Below, one piece after another: positions 2,541 through 54,785 of a stretch of DNA of 64,000 nt. The notes beneath the pieces are model-generated. The model saw nothing but the letters and a program-made list of their open reading frames with translations. It did not search any database and was not told the origin of the DNA. Within the stretch, counting starts at the first letter, position 1. Each line of letters begins with the position of its first letter. The position numbers and the translations under genes were made by a program. Source of the stretch: Megalobrama amblycephala (taxonomy: Eukaryota; Chordata; Actinopteri; Cypriniformes; Xenocyprididae); assembly GCF_018812025.1 (NCBI RefSeq), contig NC_063061.1, forward strand, positions 690,001 to 754,000, written 5' to 3'.

Positions 2541-3345
2541 GCAAGAACCAATGAGGTTCATTCTCGTGTTATGCATCACATTTGAGCTTCCGCAAGAACC
2601 AGTGAGGTTCATTCTCGTGTTATGCATCACATTTGAGCTTCCGCAAGAGCCAATGAGGTTCATTCTCGTGTTATGCATCACATTTGAGCTTCCGCAAGAA
2701 CCAGTGAGGTTCATTCTCGTGTTATGCATCACATTTGAGCTTTCGCAAAAGCCAATGAGGTTCATTCTTTTTCGTGTTACGCATCACATTTCAGCTTCCG
2801 CAAGAACCAATGAGGTTCATTTTCGTGTTACGCATCACGTTTGAGCTTCCGCAAGAACCAATGAGGTTCATTCTCGTGTTACGCATCACGTTTGAGCTTT
2901 CGCAAGAGCCAGTGAGGTTCATTTTCGTGTTACGCATCACGTTTGAGCTTCCGCAAGAGCCAGTGAGGTTCATTCTCGTGTTACGCATCACGTTTGAGCT
3001 TTCGCAAGAGCCAGTGAGGTTCATTCTCGTGTTACGCATCACGTTTGAGCTTTCGCAAGAGCCAGTGAGGTTCATTTTCGTGTTACGCATCACGTTTGAG
3101 CTTTCGCAAGAGCCAGTGAGGTTCATTCTCGTGTTACGCATCACGTTTGAGCTTTCGCAAGAGCCAGTGAGGTTCATTCTCGTGTTACGCATCACGTTTG
3201 AGCTTTCGCAAGAGCCAGTGAGGTTCATTCTCGTGTTACGCATCACGTTTGAGCTTCCGCAAGAGCCAGTGAGGTTCATTCTTGTGTTACGCAGCACGTT
3301 TGAGCTTCAGCAAAAACCAATGAAGTTTGTTCTTGTGTGTTAAGC
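2541..3345 (+). repeat. 51-bp minisatellite, about 15.7 copies
   Basis: Units begin GCAAGARCCARTGAGGTTCA and recur every 51 bp at 2541, 2592, 2643, 2694, 2745, 2800, 2851, 2902, 2953, 3004, 3055, 3106, 3157, 3208, 3259 and 3310. One unit (2745) is 55 bp because of a 4-bp insertion. Since 51 is 3 x 17, a stop-free frame runs through on both strands, giving open frames of up to 189 codons with a 17-residue period; I do not regard these as genes. The first five units carry TATGCATCACA, the later ones TACGCATCACG. Confidence 0.95.
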
Positions 3346-3630: not shown

Positions 3631-5818
3631 TGATCAAGAAATTAGTTCTTCAGCAAATGCATAATCTGATGGTACACAAATTTGGATGCAGCTCCAGTGA
3701 TCAACATTGTGCATGGTTTCCCTCCTTTTGCATCACCAGGCAGCAACTGGACTAGGCTGTCGTACTTCAACTACTTCATCCAGCACAGTTTCTGCTGTAA
3801 ATATTATGATATAGTAATAGAGAATAAGACATAATAAGAGAATCGCACAGGCTGCATCCCAGCACACAGCCTACAAGGCCACTTCATTTATTAGAACATC
3901 ATAAAACGTCATAAAGTTTCAGAAGCACCACCCTGAGCAGCATTCATGCAACAAATAATTTATATTTTCATAGACCAATGTAATTTGAGGGTGAAACTAA
4001 GGACGGCACAGTTTTAGTGCATACAACACAGGCTCGTCTTGGTTTACAACTTGCAAATGGACAGTCTTTAATCAAACATTTATCACTATCATGTGTGCTC
4101 TCTTCCAGCATCCATAGACAAACCCTGGAAAAGCAACTATTCTCAAGGTTATTCTTAGAATAGTGCTATACATAAGGGACCGGATTAACCAGGTCATGCC
4201 ATTGGCCTGGGTTATATGATATAATCCCATTGTGCTCAGCAAGGAGTCTTAGGGCAGTTGTGACAAGTTCAGATATGTTTTTGGTTTCCTAAAGAGCACA
4301 TTCACTAAGAAGGTGGGATTGGGGACCTGGTTTTCTGGTCAGAAAGCACCTGTGTTTTCAGTTATCCGATGTTTTAAATGCATCTCCTGTCACCTGTTGT
4401 ATTTGGATTTACCCTCTTGTTTAGTCACATTCTATATCACTTTCATATCGAATAAGATTGAATGAATGAAGCCACTACACTGCTTATGAGTGAGTTGGAA
4501 AGGAAAGGATACAAATGGTAACAGTGATTTTAGTTGTAAATCGTGTAAGCGTTTTGGCACAACATAGCAAATTTGGAAATGACTTCTAAGCAACTGCAAT
4601 TGAGATGAATGAGAATGTGATGGATAGCTCTGTCCAGCTTTTGTAGATCTCTTTGAGTTTAGCGACACCTTCACTTAAAAACCATTAGATAGATAAATTA
4701 GTACAGCATGACAGCCACAATCCTCTAGAAGTCCTTATCAGGCAGTAGTCCTATTGGGTGCCAGAGTCTTGCTGAAGGCTATGGAAGAGGTAGTTGAGAA
4801 GACAGAAAAATAGGATTAACTGGGAAATCCAACACCTGATCCTGAAACCAGACAGCACTTTTTGTAGCAACTTTAGGAAGCTTAATTAAGTCTCAACCGT
4901 TGACAGTTCCTCCATGCCTTGGGTCAACAGTGTTACTGAGTGGCCAGTTTTATTAAGACTATAAATAAACTGAAACTGAAACTAAGCACATAATAATACA
5001 ACAATGTTGACCACAGTGCTGTACAAACAACAAGACAACATATAACGAACACAAATGACTATAAATAAAAGATTTACAAAACATCTACTCGCATACTCTT
5101 AAACTCTCATTATTAAAGACACTTAAAACACTGATTACTCAAAGACACCAATTTTCTGCACTGAAATGAACATCACTTCCTTTCACTCTCAACACTTTAC
5201 TCCCAACAAATAAACACCTTCCTGAGTAAAGAGAGAAAATGTGTGAACATCACCCAATTCATCCTATCAGAGCATATATAACTCTTCTCGTATTTCATAC
5301 AAACAGGTCATTTATAATCCGATGATTAATCTTTAGTGTTACGTCATGTTAAAATTGTAATAGATCAAACTGCTTAGAAATGAGCAGAGGTATATTAATT
5401 AGGACAGAAACAAAGTACAAAGTACCAAGGAAAATCCTCAAGGAAGCACCAGCTAATAGTCAAAATCTTGCTGTAAAAACAATAAACAAATAAGCATCAA
5501 AAACATTCCAAAAATTATGATAAAAAAGAATAATTTGGTGCCCCCAGGTTACTTGAAGGGCAAAAAAAACAAAGCCTTGGCAAACTTCATATTATCATGT
5601 CTTTGATGACGCAAAACATGAAAGTGGCTTCAACTGTGGCGGTGAAGATTTTCAGTGAATTTTAATGTTTCTCATCTATCATATGGCATCATAAGTCTTG
5701 GAATATAGAAAAATGTAAAGATTAATTTTATGGCGCATTTTATTTTTCACAGATGAGTTTTTTTTGTGTGTGAGTGAATGTGTTTTGACTCAAGTTACTT
5801 AAATGTAGAACTAGAGTG
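3631..5818. other. No recognisable feature
   Basis: AT-rich unique-looking sequence without coding potential or transposon ends that I can support. Confidence 0.45.
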
Positions 5819-5823
5819 ATGAT

Positions 5824-6476
5824 TGTAACATCTGTTCTGGGTTTGGGTTTTGTTTGAGTTGTTATCTTATTAGTTTTGCACTGTGCCCAGTTCTGTTTCC
5901 TTGGTCTTTGCCATGATTTGCCCTCATGCATCACACCTGTTTCTTGGTAAATTATCTTGTTTAGTCCCTAGTTTGTCCCTGTGTATTTATAGCACTGTGT
6001 TTGGTTGTCTTTTTCAGATCTTTTTATTTTATTCGTGTTGTTCTGTTTACCATTTTGTTTCCTGTGGTCTGTTGCATGAAGCCTGCTTTGTAAATCTTTA
6101 AATTCAAGATTTTTTTTACTTCAACACAAAAGTGATTTGCGGATGTTCTCTCACGAGAGACTCTCAAAAGGCTTTTTGCAGTACGTCACACTTTTTAGGT
6201 GCACATGCTCTACATTTTTATTACAAACTCTGGATCAAATCCTGAGTTGACAAAGAACGTTTATACCAAGCATTGTAAGCCAGCTGAACCCTATCTAATC
6301 CAGGTTGGATTTGTATGGTTTTGCTAACTCTAAACCTACTCTGAAATGTTTGTTCAGCAAGCTTCATGCAACAGGCCGCTGATATCTTGAGAAATTTAAT
6401 TTTTGAATTTTTCATTTTAACTGTTTGCAAATCTAGCTCTTCTATTTTCCATCTTTTATTCAACCCCTGCATGACA
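5824..6476 (+). repeat. 5' LTR, split by a MITE
   Basis: It begins TG and ends CA. The sequence CATCTTTTATTCAACCCCTG near its end is shared with the 3' LTR at 7931-7950. The MITE at 6066-6377 roughly doubles its length. Confidence 0.7.
6066..6377. mobile_element. MITE inside the 5' LTR
   Basis: The ends are inverted repeats: GTCTGTTGCATGAAGC at the left and GCTTCATGCAACAGGC at the right. The interior (CTCTCTCACGAGAG, AAACTCTGGATCAAA, GTTTATA, GTAAGCCAGCTGAACC) resembles one arm of the foldback element at 49.7-50.1 kb. No coding capacity. Confidence 0.65.
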
Positions 6477-7512
6477 GAAGATCTGACCCAAACTAATGGA
6501 TCTAGCAGCAGTTCAGATCCTCCTCCTCTCCCAGGGGGATCAGTCCCTCGAGGTGCACACACAGGGGTTTCTGGATTTGGTACCCTTCATGATTTAAGAT
6601 GACATCAGCCTCTGTGTGTTCTGTGGAGACTGCCCTCGAGGAACATTCCACGAGTTCATCGAGTTGGTATTACTGCAGTGAGGATCCCCCCAACACCATC
6701 TGAAAGAGTGAGGAGGACCCACTAGCACATGCCGCACCATCAACTACAGCCCCAATGATTGAGCCCACAGCAGACTCAGACCGTGAGCCTGCCACAACGA
6801 AAGAGCTAAAGCCCTGTGAGAATTAAGAGCCAGAGCTTAAAGCAGCCATATCTGACCAGGTGCATGAGCTGGCCCTGATTTCCCAAATTATCTACATGCC
6901 TGTTTTGTTGCCCAGTACCAAGTCTGTTTTATCACCCAACATCATTATCAGTGTGGTCTATGATGTTCCCACCCTGCCTCCAACTCCCATCTCTTCTGCC
7001 TGTTTTGATTCTGCCTGTTTTGAACTCTCTGCCTGTCCCGTATCGATCAAAGTGGTAGATTTTGAAATCTCTGCTTGTCCCATATCGATCAAGAAGGCCA
7101 TTTTTTTTTAAAAATTTTTAACTTTCTGCCTGCTCTTTCATGGCAAAGGAGGCCACCTTGTAACCCTCTGCCCATGCTATCGCATTCTTTGGCCCTGTCT
7201 CTGCTGGCTTTGACTCCTCTATCACTGCCTCCTATCAGCAGCTCAGATCTGACTTGGGCTTCCTGTTCTCCCATCACTCCACCTCTGCCTGTCGACCAGT
7301 CAGCTCCTTGCTCCCTTGGCTCCACCTGGGACCGCTGTCCTTACGGCTCCATCGGGTTTCCATTCCAATCATCGCTCTGCATTTTCCACGGACATCCGGG
7401 CCTTCGGCCGTGCCTCGTTCCTCCACCCCTTTGGCTCCATCGGGCACCTCCTATTCCCTCCTATTCCACCTCTGTCCACCATTGCACTGGCTCCACCTCA
7501 GTCCTCTGTGTT
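6477..7512 (+). pseudogene. Decayed proline-rich gag-like region of the LTR element
   Basis: This is the internal region of the 5.8-8.0 kb element. Open pieces in shifting frames give acidic then proline- and serine-rich peptides, for example around 6,860-7,110 (SDQVHELALIS, then repeated SACPVSIK-like segments) and around 7,140-7,520 (many Pro-Pro and Ser residues). The same order, DQVHE or DQVRE, acidic stretch, then a Pro-rich tail, occurs in the better preserved copy at 26.0-27.2 kb. In retrotransposons such a protein would be the capsid-like packaging protein, but no CCHC zinc knuckle is visible and several stops and frameshifts break it. Assignment as gag rests on position between the LTRs; the exact homology is not proven. 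Confidence 0.5.
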
Positions 7513-7957
7513 TGAGTTTTGTTTGAGTTGTTTGGTGTGTTCGACTTAAAGCGGTGCTGTGCAGACCGACTGGTGTATGACAAAGTACCACGAGAGAAAT
7601 TCAAAAGCATATAGAGCCATCTGCTTTCAAATCACTCTTGCGGTACTTTGATTTCATGCACTGATCGGTCTGCACAGCGCCCCTTCAAGTCGAACACACC
7701 AAACAACTTTTTTTGCTTCCCTTGTCTTAGTTCATGTGTTACCATATTTTTGCCCTCATGTTTCACACCTAGTCCCTAGTGTGTCCCTATGGTTTGTTTC
7801 GGTCTTTGTCAGATTTTGTCATTTTATAGGTGTACTGTTTATGGTGTTTTTGTTCTCTAATATCTTGAAGTGTAATTTGAGTTTGTTTTCATTAAAACCT
7901 CTTGCAAATAGATCCAGCTCTTTTATTTTACATCTTTTATTCAACCCCTGGGTGACA
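7513..7957 (+). repeat. 3' LTR, 5'-truncated and split by a MITE
   Basis: It resumes at AGTTTTGTTTGAGTTG, equivalent to about position 20 of the 5' LTR, is broken by the MITE at 7527-7707, then continues to GGTGACA. It shares TTGCCCTCATG, TCACACCT and CATCTTTTATTCAACCCCTG with the 5' LTR. Confidence 0.65.
7527..7707. mobile_element. 181-bp full-length foldback MITE
   Basis: The ends GTTGTTTGGTGTGTTCGACT and AGTCGAACACACCAAACAAC are perfect inverted repeats. Pairing continues inwards through GCTGTGCAGACCGA / TCGGTCTGCACAGC and CAAAGTACCACGAGAG / CTCTTGCGGTACTTTG, so nearly the whole element folds into one hairpin with arms of about 90 nt. No clear target duplication; the exact outer border is uncertain by a few bases. 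Confidence 0.8.
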
Positions 7958-7962
7958 ATGAG

Positions 7963-8795
7963 ACTGTTGATTTGAGTTTTTATTATTCAATAAAAATACA
8001 TTACACATTGCACTTGATGTGATTGCTTGTGTGCAATATAATTGCTTGTGACTGATTACTTGCATACTAATCTTTCAGCACTGCATCTTCGCATACTTCA
8101 GTACATTAAGAATCGAGAACAATCTCTTAATGTAGCGGGAAGCATACATTATGACCTTAATCTCCCTTGGTGGATAAGTAGATTAAAATTATAAAACCTC
8201 CCATTAATGTATTCTTATGGGCACATATGCTGATGGCAACATGAAACTCATAGGCAAACTCATACATCATTTAAAGTTTTTTTTCTACAAAGTCCCTTAG
8301 TGGGCCTCATACACATTTTATAATATGCTGAATAGCTAAGGATAAATAATGTAGAATTAAATGAGTGGAAATATACCACTCTGGCATGCTGGAAACACTC
8401 AGTGCAGGGCCTATTACTTTTTCTTTTGTCGCATCTTGACCAATTGTCTACTCAAAAATATATCAAACACATACTACATCAGCTACAACCAGGGTAGTCA
8501 ATGGAACATAGAGTTTCTTGGCATGGATGACAGCCAACATTGCTAAACATGCCTAATGGACCACATGAGTGGTAGAATGACAGCTGTTACACAGCCTGGC
8601 ATGTGAAGAACTCTAATGGATGCTTGCATGATATGGTGGGGAAAAAGACATGCCAGGTTCAAGCAAGCAAAACCCTCCAAACAAGCTAATTTGTGGGCAA
8701 ATTTTAAGAAAACATCACCTTTCACAGTGTTAACATGGCCTTTAAGATACAAAGGGGGTGTACATACTTGGTTTTGTTTGATTAAAATAAACTCT
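7963..8795. other. No recognisable feature
   Basis: No coding or repeat hallmark that I can support. Open frames here are short and give unrecognised peptides. Confidence 0.4.
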
Positions 8796-15604: not shown

Positions 15605-16555
15605 ATTTACATTTATTCATTTGCCAGATGCTTTTATCAAAAACAACTTACAAGTGAGGAATACAACATGCGAGTCATCATGAAGAGGCAAATAGACACA
15701 AGAAGTGCTCACCATACAAGTTTCAGACATTGCTCAGAGTATTATAAGCTACAATAGAGAGGGATTAAAGGAAATGAAAGAATAGGTATTGAAAGGATTT
15801 ATATATATATGAAGTGTTAGGTTATATATAGGTTAAGTGCTCACGAAAGAGATGAGTTTTCAGCTGTCTTTTGAAGGCAGGAAGATCGTTCCACCAGCAT
15901 GCAGTATGTTCTGGAGAGTGATTTTGTGCCTCTCTGTGATGGTACCACGAGCCTTCGATCCTTTAGTGAGCGTAGGCTTCTGGTAGGGGTGTAGACTCAT
16001 AAAAATGAGTGGAAGTAGGGGGGTGCTGAGCCTGGGGTAGATCTGTAAGCAAGCGTCAACGCCTTGAACTTGATGCGAGCAGCAAGTGGTAGCCAGTGCA
16101 GAGAGATGAAGAGAGGCATGACGTGGGCTCTTTTGGGCTTGTTAAAGACGAGACGTGCTGCAGCGTTTTGAATCATTTGCAGAGGCTTGATTGTGCATGA
16201 TGGCAGTCCAGCCAGAAGAGCATTGCAGTAATCAAGCCTAGAAATGACCAGGGCCTGGACAAGAAGTTGTGTTGCATGTTCTGTTTGAAAGGGCCTGATT
16301 TTCCTGATGTTGTATAGTGCAAATCTGCATGACCGAGCTGTCTTCGCAATGTGGTCTTTGAAGGTCAGTTGGTCATCAAAGATTACTCCAAGATTTCTGG
16401 CCAAATTTGATGGGGTAATTGAGGATGTACCCAGCTGGATGGTGAAATCATGCTTTAGAGTCGGAAGACGAGAAGCTCAATCTTTGCCAGTTTGAGCTGC
16501 AAATGATGTTCTTTCATCCATGTCGAGATGTCTGCCTGACAGCAATATCAACTCT
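15605..16555 (-). mobile_element. L2-type LINE remnant, 3' portion
   Basis: It combines the reverse-transcriptase fragment at 15.99-16.5 kb with a 3' untranslated part. On the plus strand the end at 15,605-15,660 reads CATTTATTCATTTGCCAGATG then CTTTTATCAAAAACAACTTAC, the very common 3' motif of fish L2 LINEs. The 5' end breaks off near 16,555. Confidence 0.75.
15870..16500 (-). pseudogene. L2-type LINE reverse transcriptase C-terminal region
   Basis: The frame 16404-15997 is open for 135 codons and carries ARNLGVIFDDQLTF, SCRFALYNIRKIRPF, LVQALVISRLDYCNALLAGL, PLQMIQNAAARLVF and FISLHWLPLAARIKFKALTL, a continuous match to the C-terminal part of L2-like LINE reverse transcriptase. Upstream, KEHHLQLKLAKIE (about 16,500) is in another frame, and downstream YQKPTLTKGSKARGT continues after a frameshift near 15,995. 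The catalytic palm itself is missing, so the fragment is inactive. It is the best preserved of the three L2 pieces in the window. Confidence 0.88.
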
Positions 16556-36724: not shown

Positions 36725-36850
36725 CCTCACCATTAGCCTGACGTGGTCATACTCAATTCTAGTCAGAATATGAGTCTGATACTGCTCCATTGGGCTTTGA
36801 TTATGGGGGCATATTTCAACCGATCCAGGAAAGTCCTCAATTGGATAGAC

Positions 36851-37120
36851 CTACAACCAATCAGAGCTACAGAGTAAGTGACGTATGTTGAGCGACGCGT
36901 AGTTGTCAACAGAACTCTTCTTAGCGACCATCGGGGCCAGCTGATAAATCAAACTTTTGCCGAATCCCGTAGGAAGGACGGCAAAGACATCTTTCCCATC
37001 GACAAATGCCTTGATCGCGGTCCTCTGTTCCTCTTTTAAAATTAATGCGCTGTCGATATCTTCTATAATGGACGCGATGGCGGAATCTACACATCTCAGT
37101 TCTTCAACAACAGCCATCAT
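36851..37120 (-). pseudogene. RecQ-helicase-like N-terminal fragment inside a transposon, copy 1
   Basis: The 89-codon frame starts MMAVVEELRCVDSAIASII and carries LKEEQRTAIKAFVDGKDVFA (motif 0/Q-like) and VLPTGFGKSLIYQLAPM (Walker A, helicase motif I), then loses similarity after VAKK. RecQ-family enzymes unwind DNA 3'-5' using ATP; here the DEAH box and all later motifs are absent, so no helicase activity is possible. A GC box and CpG-rich sequence lie just upstream (minus strand), as for a promoter plus first exon. It differs from copy 2 by one extra Val codon and a few substitutions. Either a captured host exon or the relic of an element-encoded helicase. Confidence 0.8.
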
Positions 37121-37129
37121 TGTTGTAAA

Positions 37130-37200
37130 CTAATTGACCTTTCGCAAAGACCCGCCCCCCTTAGTTACTGTTGCTTTGTCCGACAAGCCGTGGCGCTGTC
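37130..37200 (-). promoter_or_regulatory. GC-rich promoter-like segment upstream of the RecQ-like exon
   Basis: On the minus strand CTAAGGGGGGCGGGTC lies about 35-45 bp upstream of the ATG, preceded by GGCGCTGTGGC-type GC-rich sequence (CCACGGCTTGTCGG). No TATA box. Identical sequence is present in copy 2 (54,073-54,142). Confidence 0.45.
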
Positions 37201-37844
37201 ACGCCACACAGAGTGGAACATACATCGCGGAGCAAAGAGGAAACTGACAACACATCGACAGACGAGACAGAGCAGGTTACTTATGATATTAAACAAAGTC
37301 CCAGCTTTCAAACTGTGTAGTTATTAAAAAAATTCAAACAATAAAAACCGTTTTGTGGCTCTTTAATGTGTTGTGACCATGACCGTGACAGATTGCTGTA
37401 GCGCCTCAGCTCAAGAGGCTCGTTAACCGATCATCTCTTCCTACTAGTCCATTTATAGCATCAAATAAACATGAATGAACATGAGAATGAATGTTGTTTC
37501 AAACGCGGAAAGACGTCAATATGCACAATTTTTCAAGTTTAACTCCACCGATGTTAATCTTCTAACTCCTGACTGCTTTGTCGGACAAAATGGCGGATGC
37601 GGCGTTCTGATTGGTTAGATCGCTTGTCAATCAAACTCCCCAAGCGCTCTTTGATGACATGGGTGGTTACGTAACCGCAGATAGCCTGTCCATCATCGAT
37701 TAAAGCCCGCCCTGGCAATTTGATTGGCTTGGCCTTCTGGGAGCCGAGCATAATTACTCCACAATGGATCGAGTCCAGACCGAACTTCCCGTCCAAAAAA
37801 TGTTGTGGGCGGGGTTCGGGCTGGCACCCAGGCTACCTCACCAT

Positions 37845-43427: not shown

Positions 43428-44400
43428 TTGAGATCACAAACAGAGTGCACGTGCAGAGTAAGCAACCAAAACGAGACATACAGTTTCAAGATGCTTAATC
43501 TCAGACTAGTGTCTCAAATTCAATCCGAGGATTGGTTTGTAATGATAGATCTAAAGGACACCTGTTTTCACATCAAAATTCTGCCAGAACACAGGAAGGT
43601 TCCCAGGTTCATTTTCAGGTGTGACGCTTAACAAAATTGAGTACTTCCTTTCAGCCTAGCCTTTTCCCCATGCACATTTACCAAGTGTATGGATGCTTCT
43701 CTGGCTCCTCTGCGACTCCAGGGCATCTGTGTACTGAACTACATAGATGACTGGTTCATTCTAGCTCATAACTCCTGTTGTGAGGAGTTAGCAGCACAAC
43801 ATTAAGATGAAGGATCTGGGACTTAGATTAAACTCCAAGAAAAGTGTTATTTCTCCCAAACAGAGAACCACTTTTCCAGGGGTAGTGTGGGATTAGACTA
43901 AGATGCAAGCACATCCATCTCCTACATGTGTGATTTCAATTTTGAACACTGTAAAAGGCATCAGGCTAGGTCAGGAGCTTTCTGTTTTGGAAATTCATAA
44001 ACTTTTAGGTCTCGTGGCAGCAGCTAATGTTATTGCTTTGGGTCTGATCAACATGATGTTGTCTCAGTTCTAGCTCAAGAGCAGATATTATTTTGATCCT
44101 TGGAATCATCCCTCCAGGGTTGTAGCTTTAGGGGCATGTTGCCGTCGCAAATTTCTCATGACGGACACCTCCCTCAAGGGATGGGGTGTAGTTCTCAATG
44201 GCCAACCAGCCAGTGGTTTGTGGAAGAACACATCTCTTTTGGCACATAAATTGCCTTGAGATGAGGGTAGTGTTTCTAGCCCTGAATTACTTTCTTCCGC
44301 AGCTGATGGGATACCATGTGTTAGTTCAGGCAGACAACACTTCGGTAGCCTCCTACATCAATCACCCGGGCGGGCTGCAGTCGCGCCCTTTTTCAGCAGA
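43428..44400 (+). pseudogene. DIRS reverse transcriptase and RNase H
   Basis: The frame 43428-43631 carries LVSQIQSEDWFVMIDLKDTC then FHIKILPEHRKVPRFIF, the first reverse-transcriptase block. After frameshifts come TKCMDASLAPLRLQGICVLN and YIDDWFILAH (about 43,680-43,770); YIDDW is the catalytic box, intact here. RNase H follows with LPQGMGCSSQ in a shifted frame and, in 44198-44400, FWHINCLEMRVVFLALNYFL and VLVQADNTSVASYINHPGG. The order is standard for DIRS pol. At least five frame breaks or stops make it inactive. Confidence 0.88.
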
Positions 44401-45332
44401 TCCTGCTTTGGGTGTAAACCAAATTCCTTTCTCTAAGAACAGTTCATATTTGGGGTCAGTCAAACATGGTGGCATACATCCTGTCGAGGCAGGGGCTGAG
44501 GCCCGGAGAATGGCTACTCCATCCACAAGTAGTGGAGTCCATATGGCATTAGTAGAATGCCTCATAGGAGACAACCCACTGTCCCACAATGTTTGGTTTG
44601 CCTTCACACCTCCAGCTCCTCTGGGGATGCCATGGTTCAGGCGTAGCCAAAGCTGCATCTGTACGCCTTTTCTCTGATAGCTCTTCTCCCAGCAGTTCTA
44701 ACAAGGGTTCGCCAGGACCAAGTTCACCTTCTACTAGTAGCTATGTTCTGGTTGGCCTGAGTATGATTAGCATGCCTAGTTGTCTCTCCTGGATGGCCTC
44801 TCCTGGGAGATCTCAGCAGGGCTGGCACTATCCACCATAAAGGTATTTGTGGCCACTAATTCTGTTAGCCAATCACTTTTAGATGGTACCTCGGCTGGGA
44901 GACATCCCTTAGTGTCTCGGTTCTTGTGCAGTGCCAGATAGCTGAGGCCTATATGCTGATCGTGAGTTCCCTCCTGGGACTTAGCATTTAGTTTTAGAGT
45001 CTGTTTCAGAGAAAATGTTGAGTCTTAAAGGAAGCTCTGTTGTTGCCGCTAATATCTCTTAAGAGAGTAAGAGACCTTCAGGCCCTTTCTGTAGCCTCTT
45101 CCTGCTTACATTTTGCACCGGGTGATGTCAGTTACATTTCACTCCAGACTGGACTACATCCCTAAATTTCCTTCTTTGGCTCTTCAGCCAGTTGCTTTGT
45201 AGGCTTTCTTTCCTCTGCTTTATGAATTGTATTAGCAGTAAACCCTTCACAATTTGTGTCCGGTCCATGCTCTGAGGATCTGTGTCCACTGCTCTGGCCA
45301 GTGGCTTAAATCCTCTCAGCTCCTAGTATGGT

Positions 45333-53634: not shown

Positions 53635-53677
53635 CTTTTTTTTTTTTTCAGATTTAATAAGAATAAGATGTAATAAG

Positions 53678-54776
53678 TAGCCTGACGTGGTCATACTCAA
53701 TTCTAGTCAGAATATGAGTCTGATACTGCTCCATTGGGCTTTGATTATGGGGGCGTATTTCAACCGATCCAGGAAAGACCTCAATTGGATAGACCTACCA
53801 CCAATCAGAGCTACAGAGTAAGTGACGTATGTTGAGCGACGCATAGTTGTCAACAGAACTCTTCTTAGCGACCATCGGGGCCAGCTGATAAATCAAACTT
53901 TTGCCGAATCCCGTAGGAAGGACGGCAAAGACATCTTTCCCATCGACAAATGCCTTGTTCGCGGTCCTCTGTTCCTCTTTTAAAATTAATGCGCTGTCGA
54001 TATCTTCTATAACGGACGCGATGGCGGAATCTACACATCTCAGTTCTTCAACAGCCATCATTGTTGTAAACTAATTGACCTTTCGCAAAGACCCGCCCCC
54101 CTTAGTTACTGTTGCTTTGTCCGACAAGCCGTGGCGCTGTCACGCCACACAGAGTGGAAAATACATCGCGGAGCAAAGAGGAAACTGACAACACATCGAC
54201 AGACGAGACAGAGCAGGTTACTTATGATATTAAACAAAGTCCCAGCTTTCAAACTGTGTAGTTATTAAAAAAATTCAAACAATAAAAACCGTTTTGTGGC
54301 TCTTTAATGTGTTGTGACCATGATCGTGACAGATTGCTGTAGCGCCTCAGCTCAAGAGGCTCGTTAACCGATCATTTCTTCCTACTAGTCCATTTATAGC
54401 ATCAAATAAACATGAATGAACATGAGAATGAATGTTGTTTCAAACGCAGAAAGACGTCAATATGCACAATTTTTCAAGTTTAACTCCACCGAGGTTAATC
54501 TTCTAACTCCTGACTGCTTTGTCGGACAAAATGGCGGATGCGGCGTTCTGATTGGTTAGATCGCTTGTCAATCAAACTCCCCAAGCGCTCTTTGATGACG
54601 TGGGTGGTTACGTAACCGCAGATAGCCTGTCCATCATCGATTAAAGCCCGCCCTGGCAATTTGATTGGCTCGGCCTTCTGGGAGCCGAGAATAATTACTC
54701 CACAATGGATCGAGTCCAGACCGAACTTCCCGTCCAAAAAATGTTGTGGGCGGGGTTCGGGCTGGCACCCAGGCTA
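53678..54776 (-). mobile_element. 1.1-kb transposon with 9-bp target duplication carrying a RecQ-like exon, copy 2
   Basis: Begins TAGCCTGACG, ends CACCCAGGCTA, flanked by TGTAATAAG on both sides (53669-53677 and 54777-54785). Compared with copy 1 at 36,734 there are about 14 substitutions and one 3-bp indel by eye, so roughly 98-99% identity. Different flanks and different target duplications show independent insertions rather than segmental duplication. Confidence 0.9.
53795..54061 (-). pseudogene. RecQ-helicase-like N-terminal fragment inside a transposon, copy 2
   Basis: The 88-codon frame starts MMAVEELRCVDSAIASVIED, with LKEEQRTANKAFVDGKDVFA and VLPTGFGKSLIYQLAPM. It matches copy 1 except for one Val codon less, I to V, I to N (RTANKAF) and the last residue. 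The Walker A Lys-Ser is intact, but nothing downstream of motif I is present. Retention of an open frame in both copies over this span may only reflect their youth. Confidence 0.8.
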
Positions 54777-54785
54777 TGTAATAAG

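Follow-up and report, generated by a model that had tools for sequence, protein, structure and literature searches.

The DNA transposons that most resemble the elements described here belong to AcademH, a lineage of the Academ superfamily reportedly defined by Kojima in 2020 (Mob DNA 11:15) in a paper whose title is said to place it in animals and fungi. AcademH elements are given target site duplications (TSDs) of 9 or 10 bp and AcademX elements TSDs of 3 or 4 bp, these lengths being related to the encoded helicase and nuclease (PMC10045372), and Academ elements are reported from zebrafish, medaka and stickleback (PMC4746887). RecQ helicases are also carried by KolobokH elements, recorded only from fungi, and by a rhodophyte Kolobok on the complementary strand (PMC9587614).

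The 64,000-nucleotide stretch of the Megalobrama amblycephala genome analysed here (NC_063061.1, positions 690,001 to 754,000; hereafter the window) carries two copies of a non-autonomous element of about 1.1 kb. Their coordinates and perfect 9-bp TSDs, as given in the original prediction, were upheld on re-reading (Table 1). Both copies have the predicted TAGCCTG and CAGGCTA tips, which constitute the whole 7-bp terminal inverted repeat (TIR), and 14 substitutions and a single 3-bp indel separate the two, an identity of about 98.7% where 98–99% had been estimated. They very probably represent a non-autonomous family generated by internal deletion of an AcademH-type DNA transposon, of which an element on contig C11 is a long relative. 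This kind of transposon is already known; the family itself may be either new or already catalogued, and none of the literature titles and abstract openings retrieved describes it.

Table 1. Features of the two window copies (window positions) and genes of the C11 element (positions within the element).
Feature	Position	Strand	Comment
Copy 1 (e1), non-autonomous element	36734..37835	.	1102 bp
Copy 2, non-autonomous element	53678..54776	.	1099 bp
TSD CCTCACCAT, copy 1, left	36725..36733		
TSD CCTCACCAT, copy 1, right	37836..37844		
TSD TGTAATAAG, copy 2, left	53669..53677		
TSD TGTAATAAG, copy 2, right	54777..54785		
Left end, copy 1	36734..36916	+	96% identity to C11 left end (upstream flank of DUF6589 gene)
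Helicase exon 1, first 68 codons, copy 1	36917..37120	-	truncated by the proposed internal deletion; no splice donor
Nested element of ~503 bp (putative separate MITE), copy 1	37136..37638	.	in helicase 5' UTR/right end interval
Right end, copy 1, second-subfamily (B) type	37639..37835	-	upstream flank of helicase gene
Helicase exon 1, first 67 codons, copy 2	53861..54061	-	
Nested element of ~503 bp, copy 2	54077..54579	.	placed by alignment to copy 1
C11 helicase exons	7490-7966, 7239-7328, 5665-6879	-	element orientation; homology to P0121
C11 DUF6589 gene, start frame MSVNNLCRCCKKN	near 211	+	about 25 bp into the span missing from the window copies
C11 DUF6589 gene pieces	376-687, 1140-1967, 1996-2526, 2738-2953, 3999-4124, 4294-5271	+	homology, open frames

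The family is present in at least 40 copies in the genome, 40 having been scored from 3226 first-look candidates, and 36 of these retain both ends. As the original prediction had proposed for elements of the form TAGCCTG...CAGGCTA, most copies are flanked by 9-bp duplications: the TSD is perfect in 33 of the 36 two-ended copies, matches at 8/9 positions in L003 and L032 and is absent from L021. Copies L018 and L019 share their flanks and represent one insertion on two contigs, such that the count by insertions is 32/35. None of the four truncated copies (L034, L036 and L037 at the left, L038 at both ends) shows a TSD. When duplication lengths of 6 to 11 were tried, exact duplications emerged only at 9, and the duplicated sequences are varied. 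Divergence from the consensus is low, with a median of 0.9% and values up to 1.6% in 34 of the 36 two-ended copies; L039 and L040 are 4.4–4.8% diverged and their TSDs are still perfect. Mid-size copies behave similarly, with perfect 9-bp TSDs in 7 of 9 two-ended examples and 8/9 matches in the other two, the truncated L071 being excluded from this count, and a further copy, L056 on contig C77, also has a 9-bp TSD (ATAAAAAGC).

The long relative, at C11:39783706-39791882, spans 8,177 bp and has the same tips as the window copies, with TIRs of 7 bp. It carries two convergent genes, one starting at the right end and encoding a complete RecQ-family SF2 helicase, the other a multi-exon gene of the PF20231 (DUF6589) family starting at the left end. 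The three helicase exons, defined by homology to P0121, a 596-aa helicase from Alosa, show 87%, 90% and 88% identity to it over residues 1-159, 160-189 and 186-596, respectively, and contain no internal stop codons. Pfam Helicase_C was found in the C11 open reading frame (ORF) itself, and P0121 carries both the DEAD and Helicase_C domains (Pfam); the best NCBIfam match of P0121 is TIGR00614 recQ_fam (E=1.8e-56), with a score of 192 bits that lies below the model cut-off of 220. The PF20231 match (E=2.2e-23) falls in the last piece of the second gene, on the opposite strand to the helicase. Further exons of this gene were located by homology, and the open frames at 1140-2526 probably also belong to it. 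Ten of the eleven C11 ORFs of at least 100 aa, one of them cut at the locus edge, were compared with Pfam, and nothing besides DUF6589 and Helicase_C exceeded the curated cut-offs; those two aside, the scanned ORFs gave no Pfam match at E<=0.1. The eleventh ORF is helicase exon 1. The original prediction had asked for longer copies with a transposase, and the C11 element, with its full helicase gene and a putative transposase gene, answers to that description.

A Kolobok-type element that encodes a RecQ helicase, such as KolobokH, would account for the helicase and, as in the rhodophyte example, for its position on the complementary strand. Kolobok elements duplicate TTAA on insertion, and here the duplications are consistently of 9 bp and of varied sequence. 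Together with the DUF6589 gene and the restriction of KolobokH to fungi, this makes a Kolobok origin scarcely tenable.

We take DUF6589 to be the Academ transposase, and the C11 protein is treated as a putative Academ-type DDD/E transposase; the word DUF6589 is absent from the literature searched. Among 12 of the 115 DUF6589 proteins found, all of them incomplete gene models, the region that carries the conserved EGDGxR and LxxE blocks is the only one to align throughout, and a GGD block occurs in the C11 gene and in 2 of the 12; the catalytic triad is accordingly putative. P0170, which is the database entry for this protein in Megalobrama amblycephala, gave a single genome match at E<=0.001, with all 5 candidates scored. 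In ENA, the longest contigs listed for P0035, a helicase N-terminus, and for P0215, a DUF6589 protein, have the same length, 7,691 bp, which suggests that they come from one element. The combination of a helicase with 9-bp duplications fits AcademH. An SF2 RecQ-like helicase is encoded by the C11 copy, and TSDs of the expected length flank the window-type and mid-size copies at the frequencies given above; at C11 itself no perfect TSD is present, the flanks matching at 1/9 positions in a 9-bp reading and 7/10 in a 10-bp reading. One could instead envisage a helicase-encoding superfamily distinct from Academ, with DUF6589 as an unclassified DDD/E transposase: the TIR is very short, the genes are convergent, and the Academ identity of DUF6589 is presumed here. 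We regard this as quite improbable, since a helicase with a 9–10-bp TSD corresponds to AcademH of animals and fungi (PMC10045372), and Academ is already known from the three fishes mentioned above (PMC4746887).

About 7.6 kb of sequence present in C11 is missing from the window copies, from approximately position 184 of copy 1 (e1) to helicase codon 68. The missing span begins about 25 bp before the start codon of the DUF6589 gene, and the junction shows about 2 bp of microhomology. Both ends are retained, together with the initial 67-68 helicase codons. Identity to C11 is 96% over e1 1-184 and 95% over the exon side (e1 183-402), and the left end and exon of copy 1 are up to 98–99% identical to those of mid-size copies. 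When the genome was searched with P0121, and 73 places scored of 916 candidates, C11 alone contained essentially the whole helicase; in 55 places the match stops at residue 69 or 72 of the helicase, as it does in the window copies, and eleven extend to residue 111-116 of the same gene.

These results bear directly on the two origins offered in the original prediction. The first was an animal counterpart of Pack-MULE gene capture, in which a Mutator-like element would have acquired the promoter of a host RecQ gene together with its first exon, and both the 9-bp TSD and the RecQ-like fragment are compatible with it. The fragment, however, adjoins the right end exactly where the longer element has its helicase gene, with 95% DNA identity to that gene (95-99% when the mid-size copies are included), and most of the scored places end at a few recurrent points within the same gene. 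Moreover, the scanned ORFs of C11, a relative of the exact parent, include no Mutator domain, the gene present being DUF6589, and AcademH accommodates 9-bp TSDs equally (PMC10045372). We consider capture very improbable: on the evidence of these alignments, the helicase fragment comes from a gene of the transposon itself and is not host-derived. The second proposal, that an autonomous element encoding its own helicase gave rise to the short copies by deletion, is supported by the C11 element.

The right end of the window copies has a different affinity. It is 97.5% identical to that of L056 and 74-76% identical to those of C11 and the mid-size copies, and the left end and exon of L056 show just 82-86% identity to the window copy. 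The window family thus looks mosaic, with a left end and exon of the C11 subfamily joined to a right end of another type, subfamily B, known from the one copy L056. The switch appears to lie somewhere between e1 402 and about 929, as judged from that single B-type copy. No transposase-bearing copy of subfamily B came to light. Since C11 lacks a perfect TSD, and its right end shares only 74% identity with that of the window family, it must be regarded as related to the parent element and not as the exact parent.

Between the exon and the right end lies a nested element (e1 403-905, window 37136-37638), not recognised in the original prediction and absent from this position in C11, L056 and the 9 complete mid-size copies. 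A solo copy (L066:252-742, 491 bp) is 85% identical and has ends TGACCCTTT/AAAGGGTCA with ATT on both sides, the nested copy in e1 lacking the last ~14 bases. These ends and flanks suggest a MITE of a type that we take to be Harbinger-like. The interval had been read as a promoter carried with the exon; with about 503 bp of it belonging to the nested element, it is not simply the helicase promoter. In L071, a different stretch of about 510 bp (2382-2892), with inverted ends ATGGTGCGTTCAAG/CTTGAACGCACCAT, occupies the exon/right-end interval.

The exon fragment lies in a minus-strand ORF (36851-37120) that comprises the 68 helicase codons of copy 1 and then reads through into the left end. The predicted open RecQ-like N-terminus with Walker A is supported by a match of this ORF to Pfam DEAD (E=7.7e-07) and by matches to solved RECQ5 helicases across 37 residues; P0029 (ENA), a longer protein with the same beginning, matches RecQ helicases over 130-150 residues, and the homology thus reaches beyond motif I, as the original prediction required. 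The description as a first exon holds for the RecQ-like start of exon 1 but not for its completeness, the fragment amounting to 67-68 of the 159 codons of C11 exon 1 and lacking the splice donor. The frame is open from the usual helicase start to the junction in 32 of the 36 copies, the exceptions being L022, L029, L035 and L039. Since the copies are only about 1% diverged from their consensus, this can be maintained without selection. Over 35 copies (L019 omitted as a duplicate) there are 27 synonymous and 41 non-synonymous differences; the synonymous share of 0.40 compares with 0.23 expected under uniform change, an expectation that ignores transition and CpG bias and a tally in which shared subfamily variants are counted repeatedly.

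A padded composite query retrieved 49 proteins at E<=1e-10 out of 1313 candidates; full-length relatives of the helicase, of about 590 aa, occur in Alosa, Misgurnus, Nothobranchius, Engraulis and Branchiostoma, and DEAD and Helicase_C were found in all three of the Alosa, Misgurnus and Engraulis proteins scanned. No relative was found among the viral contigs scanned with P0029. Within the present genome, helicase fragments at L073, L074 and C23:22657006 (L058) are 58-62% identical to P0121 and probably belong to further, or more ancient, families of this type; L073 and L074 gave only partial helicase matches (59-61%) and no DUF6589 match. Pieces of such a transposon helicase are also contained in three gene models, P0157 and P0162 of Pimephales promelas and P0146 of Platichthys flesus, which bear the names MITF, tripartite motif protein and CEP41-like; these models are likely to be annotation chimeras or cases of exonisation. 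Elsewhere in the window there are a minisatellite (2541-3338; 51-bp unit, 15.6 copies, two open frames) and two open frames that, by eye, resemble the remains of a non-LTR reverse transcriptase (15997-16476, minus strand) and of a retrotransposon pol gene (44192-44677, plus strand).

A plausible history can be outlined. The window copies would be internal-deletion derivatives of an AcademH-type DNA transposon with its own helicase, the deletion may have arisen during gap repair, and the mosaic structure could reflect template switching or recombination. The short copies would then have been moved in trans, by cut-and-paste, by the transposase and helicase of a fuller copy. It is unlikely that the single transposase-bearing C11 copy is still a working source in trans and that the helicase is needed for cut-and-paste; if both were true, the family would provide a vertebrate system for testing the role of the helicase in DDD/E transposition. 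The claim of gene capture in an animal is replaced by a plainer origin, in which the helicase exon belongs to the transposon. In its anatomy the family illustrates, for a vertebrate, how helicase-carrying transposons can give rise to short copies, by internal deletion, nested insertion and subfamily mosaicism, and some of the fish gene models called RecQ-like helicases are likely to be transposon genes.

In comparison with known systems, the family shares 9-bp duplications with Mutator and Pack-MULE elements but differs in showing no Mutator domain, in carrying a fragment of its own helicase and in having a TIR of 7 bp, against about 215 bp for Mu (PMC2774946). KolobokH is likewise a DNA transposon carrying a RecQ helicase, but it is reported only from fungi (PMC9587614). 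Its duplications are of TTAA and its transposase is a different one. AcademH is matched in the SF2 helicase beside a putative transposase, in the TSDs of 9 or 10 bp and in occurrence in an animal; the window family differs in that most of the copies seen have undergone internal deletion, contain a nested MITE and end, on the right, in sequence apparently derived from another subfamily.
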